Below are positions 2,646 to 7,925 of a stretch of 42,571 nt of DNA, piece by piece. The notes below the pieces were generated by a model, which did no database searches, was not told the DNA's origin, and was given only the letters and a program-made list of their open reading frames with translations. The translations under genes were made by a program, and so were the position numbers. Where the stretch lies: positions 1 to 42,571 of the forward strand of contig CAADGE010000045.1 in the NCBI GenBank assembly GCA_900696465.1, written 5' to 3'. This DNA comes from an uncultured Planctomycetota bacterium. Lineage in GTDB: Bacteria > Planctomycetota > Phycisphaerae > UBA1845 > UTPLA1. Each line of letters begins with the position of its first letter. The stretch's first letter is position 1.

Positions 2646-2952
2646 TCTGTTGCCGGGATCGCGACCCGGCACTTGACCGACGGCGGTTACCGCGTGTATG
2701 CTTATCATTTGACCAGTCTGAATTGTTGATGACAGGGCCGGTACGATGTCAACGCCTCAGGAAAGAATCGACCAGCGCGTGTGCGAAAGCCGCGCAGACA
2801 CCTGATATTTTACAGCGATCCCCCCTCACCCAACGGGTCGATCGGCCGGCGAGCGGCGATCGACCCAATTTTATGCGCGCCACGCCTGCTTACTTCGAAA
2901 AGAGTGGCCCCGCCGCCGTCTCATCGCGATCAATCAGTTCTTCAGTCCGAGA
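2646..2952. other. Gene-free stretch between convergent genes; possible small RNA
   Basis: I see no convincing protein gene here. Two features stand out on the plus strand: a promoter-like pair (TTGACC 2673-2678, 18-base spacer, TATGCT 2697-2702) and a strong hairpin followed by AATTTT at 2835-2872. Together they could delimit an RNA of roughly 160 bases. This is inference only. Confidence 0.25.
2835..2872 (+). terminator. Strong hairpin with T-run
   Basis: A perfect 10-bp inverted repeat (GGGTCGATCG 2835-2844 / CGATCGACCC 2857-2866) with a 12-base loop is followed by AATTTT. It has the form of a factor-independent terminator on the plus strand. In the minus direction it could also protect the end of the ATPase gene, though no T-run follows there. 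Confidence 0.55.
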
Positions 2953-4404
2953 TCACTCAAGCTGCACAGTTGCGCGGCTGCTCATGCTCGATTTTCCCAT
3001 GACGAGGTTTTGGCCGACGGTGTAGCAGTAGAGGCTCGCGGGTAGAAACTCGACACGTACGCCTTCTCGTTCGGTTGAACCGTGAAACGTACGAGTCGTG
3101 ACTCTAATTCCCCTCAAGCCGTTTCGCTTGCAGAACTCGGTCTGCGCCTTGAGTTCTTCCGGATGCTTGCCGGGCCGATCGCTCCATTTCACCTCGACGG
3201 CCCACTCGAGAGTCCTTCGGCCCAAGCTGACAATGTCGACTTCGCCGCCCTTCCACCGGGCATAATGCAACTTCTGTGGAGAATGAAACCACTGGGAAAA
3301 AATCGCGGTCTCAACCAGTGAGCCGAGTTGCTCATCATCTGCGGTAATCGGTTGAAAAAGTGCGCTTCGCATGGAGGGATTGGTCAGGTAGACCTTAAAA
3401 TAGTTCGCCCGCTGAAACCGTCGTCCGCTATGATCCACACGATGAACGACGCGAATGAGAAACGCCGCTTCCAGGTACTCGATGTATTTTTTGATGGTGT
3501 TCTTGACGACTCCGGAATTCTTGGAAAGTTCGGTCAAAGAAACCTCCTGTGCGGTGTTCAATGCCAGAGTCGTAAAGAGATAATTGAGCTCTTGGATATC
3601 CGAGATTCCGTAGAGACCCGGAAGGTCGCGCAGAAGGACTTTGTCAATGATGTCGCTCTTTATGAACCGCTGTGGGTCGGACTGGATCTCTTCTGAAAGA
3701 ACAATCTCGGGATAACCGCCGTAGTTGAGGTAATGGACAAAGCTCTCATTGAGCGCATTGATGTTCGGTGCTTTGAACGAAGGTAAGTCGAAACCCGACG
3801 AATTGGCGACGGATTCGATCAGCGCGTCTTTTCCAAGGAGCGTTAGATACTCGTGAAACGTGAGCGGCGGGAGCAGGAAGTCCGTGAAGCGACCGGCGCC
3901 GGACTCCGTACTCTTGAGCCGCAGGGCTGCCGCGGCCGATCCGGATGCGACAAACTTGACGCGAGGCATGTCGTCCACCAGCACCTTCAGGTGGCGTTCC
4001 CAATCTCGCAAGTACTGAATCTCATCAAAAAATACGAAGCAGGGCTCCTTTCTTACTTTCGTCTTCGTTTCGTTTACGAATAGGTCTACCAGTTCATCGA
4101 GGCGAAGTCCGTTGTAAATTGGGTGATCGACCGACACATAGCAGATCCGTCGGCCGGACACTCCCTGGTCGATGAGCCTCTGAATTGAATGGTGAATCAG
4201 GACCGTCTTTCCGACCCGGCGCGGGCCCAGGAGCACGACGGCTCGCCGAATCCCCTCTGCCTTCAATAAAGTCAAGAAGAGCCCGAGGTATTCACGGGGA
4301 CGTGCATAGTCTCGATACTGCTTGGCAATCTGGTGAGGAGGGGTCCACCACGGATTCTCCAAACGCATGCGCGCCGCAACTTGTTCCGCAGGAACCGTAC
4401 GCAT
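2953..4404 (-). CDS. AAA ATPase of the AAA_14/DUF4143 family
   Basis: 483 aa. The Walker A motif is GPRRVGKT (residues 60-67) and the Walker B motif FVFFDEIQYL (about 123-132), followed by a sensor-like VKFVASGSAAAAL. The C-terminal half has the DUF4143 pattern: a helix-turn-helix-like segment (SLTELSKNSGVVKNTIKKYIEYLEAA, written here in parts: LTELSKNSGV, NTIKKYIEYL), then EVDIVSLGRRTLEWAVEVKW, resembling a PD-(D/E)XK-type core. Such proteins are common, patchily distributed and of unclear role; they are often carried by mobile DNA. The gene and especially its 5' flank are more AT-rich than the neighbours, which suggests horizontal acquisition. It sits directly downstream of top6B, where top6A would normally be expected. 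Confidence 0.88.
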   Translation of the reverse strand: MRTVPAEQVAARMRLENPWWTPPHQIAKQYRDYARPREYLGLFLTLLKAEGIRRAVVLLGPRRVGKTVLIHHSIQRLIDQGVSGRRICYVSVDHPIYNGLRLDELVDLFVNETKTKVRKEPCFVFFDEIQYLRDWERHLKVLVDDMPRVKFVASGSAAAALRLKSTESGAGRFTDFLLPPLTFHEYLTLLGKDALIESVANSSGFDLPSFKAPNINALNESFVHYLNYGGYPEIVLSEEIQSDPQRFIKSDIIDKVLLRDLPGLYGISDIQELNYLFTTLALNTAQEVSLTELSKNSGVVKNTIKKYIEYLEAAFLIRVVHRVDHSGRRFQRANYFKVYLTNPSMRSALFQPITADDEQLGSLVETAIFSQWFHSPQKLHYARWKGGEVDIVSLGRRTLEWAVEVKWSDRPGKHPEELKAQTEFCKRNGLRGIRVTTRTFHGSTEREGVRVEFLPASLYCYTVGQNLVMGKSSMSSRATVQLE

Positions 4405-4433
4405 CTATCACCCACAACAAGTGAATCCACGAT

Positions 4434-4474
4434 ATTCTATCGATTGGCAAGCTAAGATCAATCGATTGATCTTA
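4434..4474 (-). promoter_or_regulatory. Promoter of the AAA ATPase gene overlapped by a perfect 22-bp palindrome
   Basis: On the minus strand, TTGATC (4461-4456), a 16-base spacer and TAGAAT (4439-4434) form a good sigma-70 promoter 30 bases before the ATG at 4404. The sequence 4453-4474 is a perfect palindrome with half-site TAAGATCAATC, and the -35 element lies inside it. This is the geometry of a repressor site; the regulator is unknown, possibly the gene product itself. Confidence 0.55.
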
Positions 4475-4543
4475 ATTGATAATCTTCCATAAAGCCATTA
4501 AATGCAAATACTTAAGAAATCGCAGTGGCAGAGTTTTATCGAG

Positions 4544-6559
4544 CTAAGCTTGCTTGTTGAACAAGGGTCCAGTAATCTCGCTTGATGGGGCGACGACGAT
4601 CGTATTCTCCCCGTACTCCGAGCCGGGCTGCTGAACCGCGGCCTTCTTCCGGCCCTTGCCCTCACTGCCTCCGATCAATTCGACCTGTTCATCGGCTCGG
4701 GCCGTGACGCGCTTCGCGATCGCCAGGAGTTGTTCGGTCAGTTCCTTCTTGTTCACACGCTTGATCTCGCCGCAGGCGTTGACCACCTCGCCGATGTAGC
4801 GCGTGAATGCGCTGCGTCGGTCGGACTCGTACTTGGCTTTCTTTCGGCGATTCAGATACGCCTGAAGCTTCCGCGCACAGTCCTGCACCGCCAGCTTGAT
4901 CTCCTTGCGGATTTCATCGTAGTCGGCGATGGCCTCCTTGCCTTCGCTGGTAAACGGCACCCAGACGCTCGCCATGTGAACGAAGATTGCCAGCGGGCCG
5001 AGCGGCAGACTGCCGCCGGGCTGCGAAAGCCCGTAGCGACGCCAGTCCACATCGAGCACGGACTTATAAATGCAGCAGGCCGAAAGTTGATAGAGCAGCG
5101 GCACACGATTGGCAAAACGCATCAATCGTGCAGGAGATGGGCCGCGCGACTCCTGTACGACCTTCCCGCGCCGTACGACCGATTCGCTTGTCGGCTTGGA
5201 CTCGTCGTCTTCCGCGTGCGGGTCCGGGCCCAATTCACCACCGTAGGCCAAACCGACCTCGATCTGAAACGGATTGCCACGATAGACCGCCGGCGGCCGC
5301 GTGCCCGCAGTGAAGAACTCGGCTTTTACGCCCTTGAGCAGACCTGCAAGAATCTGCTGCGGACCGATCGGTGAAAGACAGTCGGTCGATGGCGCGCGGA
5401 TCGGCGTCTCCTGCATGGCCTTGTAAAGCGTCTCCGCCTCGTGCGTACCGATGCGAGACGGCCGCGACCGTGGGCTGATCTTTGCCTTTTCGCAGATGGT
5501 GCTGGCGGCAGCGCTGCTGACGCGTGAAAACTCGCCGTGCAGAAACTGGGCCACCGTCGACTGACGCGCATCTTTGAGCATCTTGATCAGCACACCCAGT
5601 TCGATGCCGTACGGATGCGGCTTGATCTCCGTCGTTGGTTCCGGCGCGGTCTCCGTACCGCGCGGAAACTCGGTCAACTCGCCCGCGGGATCAACAAATT
5701 CAAAGCGTGCGTGCGGGTTCGCAATAGCCGTCTGTTCGAGGTACTCATCCACCGACGAGCGGCCCTTCTGATACGTGCCGACCAGCTCGATCTTCACTTC
5801 GGTACCGTGGGGCCAGTCCACATCAACCGTCTTGTCCTTGACAATCTGCGGCGCGTTTGTCTTTGTGTTGATCTGCAGCTCGTAGTAATGCGCTGCCGAG
5901 CGCGCCCCGGTGCGCGAAGTGATACGCACACTCTTTCCCGTGGTGAGCAGGCCGTACATGCCGGCGGCGGAAATACCGATGCCCTGCTGGCCGCGACTCA
6001 TTTTGAGCCGGTGAAACTTCGACCCGTAAAGCAGCTTGCCGAAGATATAGGGGATCTGCGTCTTGACGATGCCAGGGCCGTTGTCGCGAACCGTGACGAC
6101 GTAGCGCTCCGCATCCGTCTGCTCGATCTTCACGTGGATATCCGGCAGGATGCCCGCCTCTTCGCACGCGTCGAGCGAATTATCGACGGCTTCCTTCACC
6201 GTGGTGAGCAGGGCCTTGCGCTTGTTGTCGAAGCCGAGCAGGTGGCGATTCTTGGCGAAGAACTCCGAGACGGAAATTTCCCGCTGCGCCTTGGACATCG
6301 ACTCCGCCGTTGCGTAACCCTTCTTCGTGCGACGCTTAACCGGAGCTGGTGCTTCTGCAGCGCGTCGGGATGATGCGGATTTGCCGGCTCGGGCGGTTTG
6401 GCCTGTGGCTTCCGTGGATTTTCGATGCTTCATGGGCATGGCTGTCGGCGCCTCTTGCGGAGAATCAAGTGCAGGGCCGCGCTCGATCGGGAAGAGCAGT
6501 TGCGTCCGATCGTCCTGCCTGCGTCGCGGTCTGGAAAGGGTCGGTGTCGCTGTTGCCAT
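4544..6559 (-). CDS. top6B: DNA topoisomerase VI subunit B
   Basis: 671 aa from the ATG at 6559, which has GGGGAG about six bases upstream. An upstream in-frame ATG at 6664 would overlap the divergent lipoprotein gene and is less likely. The GHKL ATPase motifs are clear: N-box [15 protein letters not shown] (about residues 122-136), DNGPGI (159-164) and [14 protein letters not shown] (from 190). An H2TH region ([17 protein letters not shown]) and the transducer domain follow. The B subunit binds ATP and clamps duplex DNA while TopVI-A cleaves it; together they relax and decatenate DNA. The first roughly 85 residues form a basic, low-complexity extension before the usual family start ([16 protein letters not shown]). 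No top6A gene is in the window; the adjacent downstream gene is an AT-rich AAA ATPase. Confidence 0.95.
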
Positions 6560-6649
6560 CCCTGGCTCCCCGGTTTGTTCGTCTTCGCGTCCGCGTCCAT
6601 AATAGTCATCGGCCGTAACGCTACAAGGCCGGAAGGACAACCGTTTGAT

Positions 6650-7402
6650 ATGCCGCTCACTCACTCTCGCGTACGGCTCACGATCACGTTGCTCCTGTTG
6701 TTATCGCTGACCGGCTGTCCGGCGCTGGATGTTTGGCGACCGCCGGCACCGACGCCCGAGGAATACGCCCGTGGGCTGATCGTGCTCTACCCCGGCTCGT
6801 CCAACATGCACATCGAAATGCTCGCGTTTTACCTGGCGCTCAAGGAAGCGGGCATCGATCTGGCCATCGAAGTGCGGCCGTGGGGAGAGTTTCTCGAACA
6901 CGTATTCGACCCGATCGGAACGCAGCCGCTCTTCGCCCAGCGGGCAGAAGTCGAAGCGGCAAGAGTCGCTGAGTACGTCCGGGCACATCCCGGCAAGCCG
7001 GTGAACCTGATGACCTTCTCCGGCGGCGCCGTGTTTGCCGTACTCACGGCTGCGGCACTGCCGCAGGACGCGCCGGTCAATCGGGTCATCCTGCTCAGCC
7101 CGGGTATCTGGACCGGCACACCGCTCGCAGAGGCCCTCGACCGGACGACGCAGGGCCTGGTCAGTTACTACTCGCCGGGCGAGAACGGCGTTTACCTCGT
7201 TGCGCAATTCTTCGGCACGGCGGATGGGTACTTCAGTGAACCGGCCGCGGCCCTGGGCTTCAGCACGTCGGACCCGCGGCTGATACAGATTCCCTGGTCC
7301 GAGGACATGCGGGCCTTCGGCAACAACGGCGAACACCTCGATTACTTCTTCAACATTCCGTGGATCAAGGAATTCGTCGTACCATGGATCATAACCAGGT
7401 AA
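6650..7402 (+). CDS. Putative lipoprotein, alpha/beta-hydrolase-like
   Basis: 250 aa from the ATG at 6650. A longer frame runs upstream but only as the antisense of top6B. The signal peptide is short and ends LLLLSLTGC, so Cys near residue 20 is the likely lipidation site. The mature part reads like an alpha/beta hydrolase: a strand plus loop [17 protein letters not shown], a probable nucleophile elbow [13 protein letters not shown] (Ser in T-F-S-G-G, first Gly of GxSxG replaced by Thr), then VILLSPG, and a late His in [10 protein letters not shown] that could complete the triad. The substrate cannot be inferred. It is divergent from top6B and 40 bases upstream of the ribbon-protein pair, so it may lead that operon. 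Confidence 0.72.
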
Positions 7403-7442
7403 TCGGTCGCGTTCGCTCCTGCGATGCCGGGAGAGTGTGCAC

Positions 7443-7925
7443 ATGCCCTCTCACTCGAGCTCTGAGACAAACGAACATATTCCGTCTCCCGCTCACCGCG
7501 TCCTGTCGGCAAAGTCTCGCGTACTGGTTTCTCTACTCGTTGCCCTGGTGTTTCATGGGGTCTACGCCGGCTGGCACTGGCAGATCAAGTACCGCAGCGG
7601 ACCCGGCTTGATCTACATCTCTCCCGAGGGTGAAATCTGGAGAAGATCAGCAGCTCGTACCATTGCGACTGACTGGCTGCAAAGGTCGCTTCAAGTCAGG
7701 GCAGCGTCCATACCGGTACTGCGGCACGCTTGGCAGTCAAATCTGATCTTCACGATTCCGACATTGCTGCCCGCCTCGTTCATCGGCGTGCTGGTGTTCG
7801 CGATCCTCACGCGTCGGCGCGGGCCGCTTGATCTTCGCGATCCATACTGCCGATGCCGTCGATGCGGCTACATCCTCGCGGGGTTGGAACATCCTCGCTG
7901 TCCGGAATGCGGGGAGGTCATCTGA
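7443..7925 (+). CDS. Membrane protein with C-terminal Cys4 zinc ribbon (first of a pair)
   Basis: 160 aa. The ATG at 7443 has GGGAG nine bases upstream; a GTG at 7437 is too close to that site. Two membrane helices (about residues 27-44 and 100-122) flank a soluble loop of about 55 residues. The protein ends in CRRCGYILAGLEHPRCPECGEVI, a Cys4 ribbon placed after the second helix and so probably cytoplasmic. This tail occurs at the ends of many small planctomycete membrane proteins of unknown role. Its TGA overlaps the ATG of the next gene by one base, and the next product has the same layout, so the two are probably translated together and may form a complex. Confidence 0.75.
   Translation: MPSHSSSETNEHIPSPAHRVLSAKSRVLVSLLVALVFHGVYAGWHWQIKYRSGPGLIYISPEGEIWRRSAARTIATDWLQRSLQVRAASIPVLRHAWQSNLIFTIPTLLPASFIGVLVFAILTRRRGPLDLRDPYCRCRRCGYILAGLEHPRCPECGEVI

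Follow-up and report, generated by a model that had tools for sequence, protein, structure and literature searches.

A PDC-S01-type ATPase gene inside the 3' end of a planctomycete top6B, and probable single-gene cassettes that carry a version of the ends of their target genes

We analyzed a 42,571-nucleotide stretch of DNA from an uncultured Planctomycetota bacterium (the window; positions 1 to 42,571 of contig CAADGE010000045.1, assembly GCA_900696465.1). The window contains top6B, the gene for subunit B of DNA topoisomerase VI (topo VI), followed on the same strand by a gene for an ATPase with AAA_14 and DUF4143 domains that matches the candidate defence family PDC-S01. We consider the following account likely. 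Topo VI is encoded at two loci in this genome, and a foreign 1.66-kb cassette carrying the ATPase gene entered top6B. Some relatives of the ATPase gene have entered other genes likewise, and they are single-gene integrative cassettes carrying a version of the 3' end of their target. The layout of the two genes is as originally predicted. That earlier reading overlooked that the ATPase gene is located inside the 3' end of top6B, and that the native tail of top6B survives behind it.

An insertion inside the 3' end of top6B

Comparison with a genome of the same genus (G001) placed the break points. The G001 top6B ends TIVV-EREESDAGPLFAK. In the window, the minus strand behind the stop codon of the ATPase gene reads DRDETAAGPLFSK and then a stop codon, which are the last 13 native codons and the stop of top6B. 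This flank aligns to G001 exactly from the base after TIVV, through the tail and past its stop, with a score of 98.5 compared to at most 54.0 in 1000 shuffles. Because the alignment starts right after TIVV, the insert is delimited to 1660 bp (Table 1), and the insertion point is between the top6B codons for TIVV and DRDE. This comparison with one sister shows that a foreign one-gene cassette entered top6B at this point, pushed the native tail behind the ATPase gene and supplied a new tail containing GPLF. GPLF is present near the end of 13 of the 16 family Top6B proteins with a complete tail, the one in the window included. The new tail therefore keeps a common feature. An insertion can leave its mark in the form of an altered protein tail.

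The insert lacks the terminal inverted repeats and short target duplication of insertion sequences and DNA transposons: no inverted repeats of at least 12 pair its ends, and no target bases are duplicated at the top6B break points. The next longest open reading frame (ORF) wholly inside the insert is 122 aa and overlaps the ATPase gene; no internal integrase gene is present. The inverted repeat behind the native tail was rejected as the native terminator, since its folding is no better than that of shuffles (z -0.13).

Across families, Top6B C-termini often follow the pattern T-[ITV]-[VIL]-[VIL] ... LF, with GPLF in the source family and QLELF at locus L083. The latter is reminiscent of a sliding-clamp binding motif.

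Table 1. Coordinates of the features at the top6B–ATPase locus in the window
Feature	Position	Strand	Size, basis or remark
top6B, DNA topoisomerase VI subunit B	4544..6664	-	706 aa; domain, equivalog and PDB matches
ATPase gene, AAA_14 + DUF4143, C-terminal E-x-D ... E-x-K motif, PADLOC PDC-S01	2953..4404	-	483 aa; Pfam, PADLOC, alignment
Inserted cassette: new top6B tail, AT-rich spacer and ATPase gene	2932..4591	-	1660 bp, 52.3% GC; break points from G001
Insert-supplied new top6B tail and stop	4544..4591	-	comparison with G001
AT-rich spacer, presumed ATPase promoter region	4405..4543	-	139 bp, 36% GC
Perfect dyad TAAGATCA-N6-TGATCTTA	4453..4474		half-sites identical to those before the Acinetobacter plasmid ATPase gene
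Displaced native top6B tail DRDETAAGPLFSK and stop	2890..2931	-	starts at the codon after TIVV in G001
Inverted repeat behind native tail	2835..2866	-	in stretch aligning with G001; terminator role unsupported

Identity and origin of the ATPase

The ATPase gave Pfam matches to AAA_14 (1.3e-29) and DUF4143 (7.1e-23) and matched seven PADLOC PDC-S01 models, the best at 5.8e-56. GKT, DE and an E-x-D ... E-x-K pattern are invariant in ten aligned ATPase sequences; we take the first two to be the P-loop and Walker B. The third comprises E421, D423, E436 and K438 (L122 numbering), invariant in ten aligned sequences including that of the window, and fits the D/E ... E-x-K active-site pattern. The protein is thus a PDC-S01-type ATPase with a PD-(D/E)XK-like C-terminal motif. 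A sequence search of the PDB with the ATPase gave no match at E 0.001. A single-sequence structure model was dropped as a query for fold search, its pLDDT of 35.4 being too low to use. PDC-S01 is described as an ATPase fused to a PD-(D/E)XK member; in frequency it ranks fourth among the defence families of prokaryotes, with 9,986 copies counted in Archaea and 29,494 in Bacteria, and validation is pending for most candidates of this class (PMC12988326).

The GC content is 54.1% in the ATPase gene, 36.0% in the 139-bp spacer before it and 62.2% in the window, which bears out the predicted AT-rich region. None of 765 stretches of 1452 bp not overlapping the ATPase gene falls below 57.8%. No match to the ATPase was found at E 0.001 in two same-genus genomes. 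Four other family members contain weak matches, sited elsewhere in the genome. No ATPase of the window kind was found at the 16 family top6B loci examined, 13 of which have at least 7.6 kb visible behind top6B and three of which end after 2, 168 and 602 bases. DUF3137 and lemA are located behind top6B in G001, and an orf1846-like gene in G010. Among plasmids, the best relatives come from two of about 13 kb in Acinetobacter, with 50.8% identity over 96% and 54.7% over 80%; one of these plasmids also has an integrase-domain gene. Because the gene is AT-rich, has no match in the same-genus genomes and finds its best plasmid matches in Acinetobacter, we judge the window ATPase to be foreign to the source lineage, as had been proposed.

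An IMG/VR pattern search for the window ATPase returned 18 stretches, none coding for a relative, and its 16 phage records are all distant. The ATPase at locus L120, described below, gave ten plasmid records, all weak.

The dyad in the spacer (Table 1) is the only match in the window allowing up to three mismatches (0.04 expected). It starts 118 bases before the ATPase NPWW codons in the window, and the identical half-sites start 127 bases before them on the Acinetobacter plasmid. At L172 (G289), a version with two mismatches starts 121 bases before these codons. At L174 and L175, the other two relatives of the dyad clade, the best match has five mismatches. The conserved half-sites tie the spacer to the ATPase gene, and the dyad is a candidate operator or recombination site, two roles that are indistinguishable here. 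A search of the spacer for promoter-like signals gave one weak match, not above chance. In IMG/VR, the dyad was found in 34 stretches, none with an ATPase of the window kind in the DNA examined; the dyad alone is therefore no marker.

Topo VI genes at two loci

The top6B product matches the Pfam domains HATPase_c and Topo-VIb_trans (E 3.7e-55) and the NCBIfam topo VI B equivalog (683 bits). It is co-linear with PDB 2q2e_B (E 3.3e-155), including the stretch between the two domains, which we take to be the H2TH domain. It thus contains the GHKL ATPase and transducer of a topo VI B subunit. Its true start is uncertain, as the alignment to solved subunits begins at residue 119.

The original prediction regarded this top6B as an orphan. 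It is not, because one top6A is located elsewhere in the genome. The source genome (G000; 4.14 Mb, 48 contigs, 96.8% complete) contains a single top6A match, a 383-aa ORF on a different contig from top6B (G000:C27:258429). It also contains a single top6B match. Most of the Top6A sequence can be aligned to the solved subunits 2zbk and 2q2e, and its LYY, VEK and DND motifs are in place in the alignment to 2zbk_A. An A subunit encoded elsewhere, one option of the original prediction, was thereby found, and is intact by these alignments. Key motifs are retained in both subunits: the genome encodes both, and the A subunit has the tyrosine motif and the acidic Toprim residues. The assignment of catalytic residues among LYY, VEK and DND is our assumption. 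Since Top6A is intact and located elsewhere, the holoenzyme is encoded at two places. Topo VI here is an ordinary enzyme, split yet complete, and probably active. Top6A and Top6B would form the usual A2B2 enzyme and act as a decatenase beside the single gyrase. The reference structures 2zbk and 2q2e are of topo VI from Saccharolobus and Methanosarcina, respectively, according to PMC11302465.

It was also suggested that Top6B works with another DNA cleavage partner, for which we found no support. Either this or a role of the ATPase as a functional topo VI partner is highly improbable. Such a role is hinted at by proximity and by the distantly related ATPase beside top6A in G050, but a canonical top6A exists, related ATPases adjoin glyS, lysS and a permease gene, and genomes of the same genus possess topo VI but not the ATPase.

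The premise that top6A and top6B are usually adjacent holds in a phylum sample of 148 genomes. Both subunits are found in 78 of them, and B alone in two more. The two genes are at most 6 kb apart in 65 of the 78, and adjacency is the common state in this sample. We also collected 61 genomes of the order (the source, 16 of its family and 44 others), of which 59 gave a top6B match and 57 a top6A match, one top6A falling below the curated cut-off. In the source family, the genes are on different contigs in 14 of 17 genomes and more than 600 kb apart on one contig in three. Different contigs in a fragmented assembly are no proof of distance, which the three single-contig genomes do prove. Pairs within 6 kb occur in the other families of the order as follows: f2, 3/3; f3, 1/1; f4, 1/13; f5, 9/10 having both genes; f6, 1/1; f8, 5/12. 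The split in the source family is old, being seen in all members examined, and separation probably arose several times. The logic of adjacent genes fails for topo VI in this family, which calls for caution.

We give almost no credence to the proposal that the ATPase gene was inserted between an adjacent top6B-top6A pair and parted it. Common as adjacency is in the phylum sample, the genes are already apart in the 16 family relatives, where no such ATPase was found in the visible DNA behind top6B. Furthermore, the native top6B tail, not top6A, lies behind the ATPase gene.

Related ATPase genes at the ends of other genes

We assembled 44 ATPase loci including the window. Four were dropped for short flanks, which left 40 rows; a single gene accounts, in pieces, for both L173 and L186, and L157 is a plasmid. 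DNA repeats of at least 60 bits around the ATPase gene were found at four of the 40 (L120, L122, L174 and L091; 60-272 bits) and at none of 200 mismatched-flank controls, the best of which reached 30.2 bits. At the protein level, eight rows (seven loci) score above 23.1 bits, the maximum among 120 mismatched controls, led by L174 (121 bits), L122 (81.6) and L120 (73.6). Flanking tail copies are thus present at a minority of ATPase loci, and the ATPase gene is the only gene that they enclose. The window and long related loci contain 210 ORFs of 300-800 aa. Flanking repeats of at least 40 bits surround two of these, both ATPase genes (L120 and L122), at loci that were themselves fetched because they bear an ATPase. 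A cruder protein-level score was dropped because its control maximum was 77 and a low-complexity match at L171 reached 81; by that score L091 (77), L088 (58) and L089 (48) did not exceed controls.

The clearest cases involve different target genes. At L120 (G050; 4716-7920), the ATPase gene follows top6A and is followed by a second top6A end of 159 bp, 96% identical. This ATPase is distant from that of the window (27% identity over 384 residues). At L122 (G000:C33; 4052-7240), in the source genome itself, a second PDC-S01-like ATPase gene follows glyS, an NCBIfam glycine--tRNA ligase match, and 103 bp of the glyS end recur on its other side (90%). Past the 103 bp the two ends diverge, reading MDKSRVVDFLNDKLS before the ATPase gene and IDKGRVAEYLQERL behind it. 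At L174 (G352), the ATPase gene lies in reverse orientation where a gene for an amino-acid permease ends, and the copy spans 265 bp (88%); its product is 58% identical to the window ATPase. Weak, decayed tails were seen at the protein level for glyS at L088 and L089 (G027 and G058, one genus) and at L173 (G421) for a gene ending RGNELVVVKSLKEMKK. Both top6A-end copies in G050 lack about 16 codons found in two sister proteins, and their junctions differ slightly.

Several points weigh against the cassette reading. No tail copy was detected at 36 of the 40 loci in DNA or in 32 of the 40 rows in protein, and the automated flank tests leave the window itself unflagged because its two top6B tails are too unlike. 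These tails share little beyond GPLF, and the case in the window rests on G001: the comparison with G010 is modest (4 of 1000 shuffles reach its score), and those with G002, G003 and G009 are not significant (equalled by 55, 227 and 422 of 1000 shuffles). The protein scores of L088 (25.8 bits), L173/L186 (25.0), L091 (24.6) and L089 (23.9) are barely above the control. The 34-bp repeat flanking L091 (G032; 97%) is intergenic, outside any gene tail. Fragmented metagenome-assembled genomes could hide or create repeats.

Other loci have an ATPase gene directly after a gene. No tail copies were found behind the ATPase at L092, L093 and L096, or at the loci directly behind lysS, urocanase and gltD. 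Downstream of lysS, a related ATPase gene is the immediate neighbour in G053 and stands some 800 bases away in G032 (L091, L093), possibly as an older insertion. A gene ending RGNEL[MV]VV adjoins the ATPase gene in two distant families (L092, L173), and the one at L092 has no Pfam or NCBIfam match. The flank of the ATPase behind pyrB (L161) is only 171 bases. At L183, the upstream ORF scanned is itself an AAA_14/DUF4143 protein. Among the literature matches listed, with preprints and most subscription papers outside reach, there was no report of tail duplication by DUF4143 or PDC-S01 genes.

How the cassettes may enter genes

These loci suggest that single-gene integrative cassettes bring a version of the target's 3' end; the host gene would therefore stay functional. 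In the window and at glyS, the presumed displaced tails are still open reading frames, so the insertions look recent, and the functional tails are clearly different. For that reason a cassette-borne gene end fits better than a long target-site duplication, in which a wide staggered break copied 34-265 bp of the target and the copies drifted later. The near identity of the copies in G050 (96%) and G032 (97%) would suit such a duplication. Uniform drift, however, gives no such mosaic of intact displaced tails beside strongly different functional ones, and we regard a long target-site duplication as improbable.

Under the preferred cassette-borne reading, the cassette is most likely mobile. The ATPase may be either the mover or the cargo. 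The glyS case, and perhaps that of top6A, agrees with a Campbell-type crossover in a tail that both partners share. We hold an alternative to be quite possible, if short of an even chance: the ATPase is passive defence cargo, and the cassette was brought in when a tail fragment on circular DNA recombined with the chromosomal gene, either through a single crossover or through an integrase acting in trans. The listing of PDC-S01 as a candidate defence family agrees with this, as does the abrupt switch of the glyS copies from 90% over 103 bp to unlike ends, which a crossover of two versions would give. The integrase-domain gene on one of the two Acinetobacter plasmids points the same way, as does L178, where a phage-integrase ORF ends 344 bases before the ATPase NPWW codons. 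No integrase gene lies between the repeats at L120, L122 or L174, however, and no core is shared at the top6B break point, a case that homology by itself does not explain. L178 is a chromosomal relative; no flanking repeats above the control maximum were found there.

More speculatively, PDC-S01 ATPase-nucleases could be self-propagating single-gene cut-and-rescue elements, which recognise or cut the 3' end of a conserved gene while a recoded copy rescues the host gene and makes it immune to further cutting. We think this doubtful. The protein would then have an element role rather than, or besides, that of an anti-phage gene. If PDC-S01 does travel in cassette form by taking over the tails of housekeeping genes, this would offer a direct, testable handle on its function and a reason for its spread.

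Topo VI and type IIA topoisomerases

A single type IIA A-subunit gene was found in the genome of the window. In the phylum sample, the 78 genomes with both topo VI subunits divide into 68 with one type IIA A-subunit match and ten with two or more; two or more are found in 41 of the 68 genomes with no topo VI. The association gave a Fisher p of 1.5e-9 over genomes, with the two B-only genomes excluded, and 0.007 over family majorities, both uncorrected for descent. In the phylum, topo VI thus tends not to occur together with a second gene for a type IIA A subunit. In the order, 59 of the 61 genomes have exactly one match; the exceptions are G048, with a second match of 23 residues, and G057 (55% complete), with none. 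An earlier survey reports no topo IV in its topo VI-bearing bacteria outside Pseudomonadota and Terrabacteria, and names five families with topo VI and without topo IV; our counts extend it (Allen and Maxwell 2024, PMC11302465).

In six of the ten topo VI genomes with an extra copy, that copy is short and divergent. In G172, a longer protein that lacks a GyrA box is accompanied by a short one. G154 has a longer one with the box absent from its usual place, the copy in G145 is a fragment, and both proteins in G123 have a GyrA box. The short divergent DNA_topoisoIV-domain proteins at L142-L147 and L149 are 637-716 aa long, with no GyrA box found, and their genomes also have a gyrase-like GyrA and topo VI. 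The five families named above are presumably members of Planctomycetota.

Comparison with known systems

Compared to other bacterial topo VI enzymes (type IIB), the one described here has both subunits with the expected domains and motifs, and its genome has one type IIA A-subunit gene. It differs in that the two genes are apart in the whole sampled family and that the top6B tail has been replaced by a cassette.

The window ATPase agrees with the PADLOC candidate defence family PDC-S01 in matching its models and in combining an ATPase with a PD-(D/E)XK-type region. Insertion into the 3' ends of genes together with a copy of the tail does not appear in the accessible part of the family's description (PMC12988326).

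The cassette also resembles homing endonuclease genes in being a single-gene unit with a nuclease-like motif that keeps the host gene functional. However, the Pfam matches of the window include no homing endonuclease domain, and any cleavage and homing are putative.

The e14 element and phage 21 integrate in icd and are elements that use the 3' ends of protein-coding genes. As proposed for the cassette, an element-borne version restores the host gene end and the native end is displaced beyond the element. Unlike these elements, the cassette in the window consists of one gene of about 1.5 kb with no integrase between the copies, and the targets vary among the ATPase relatives, with proteins that are 58% identical located at top6B in one case and at a permease gene in the other.

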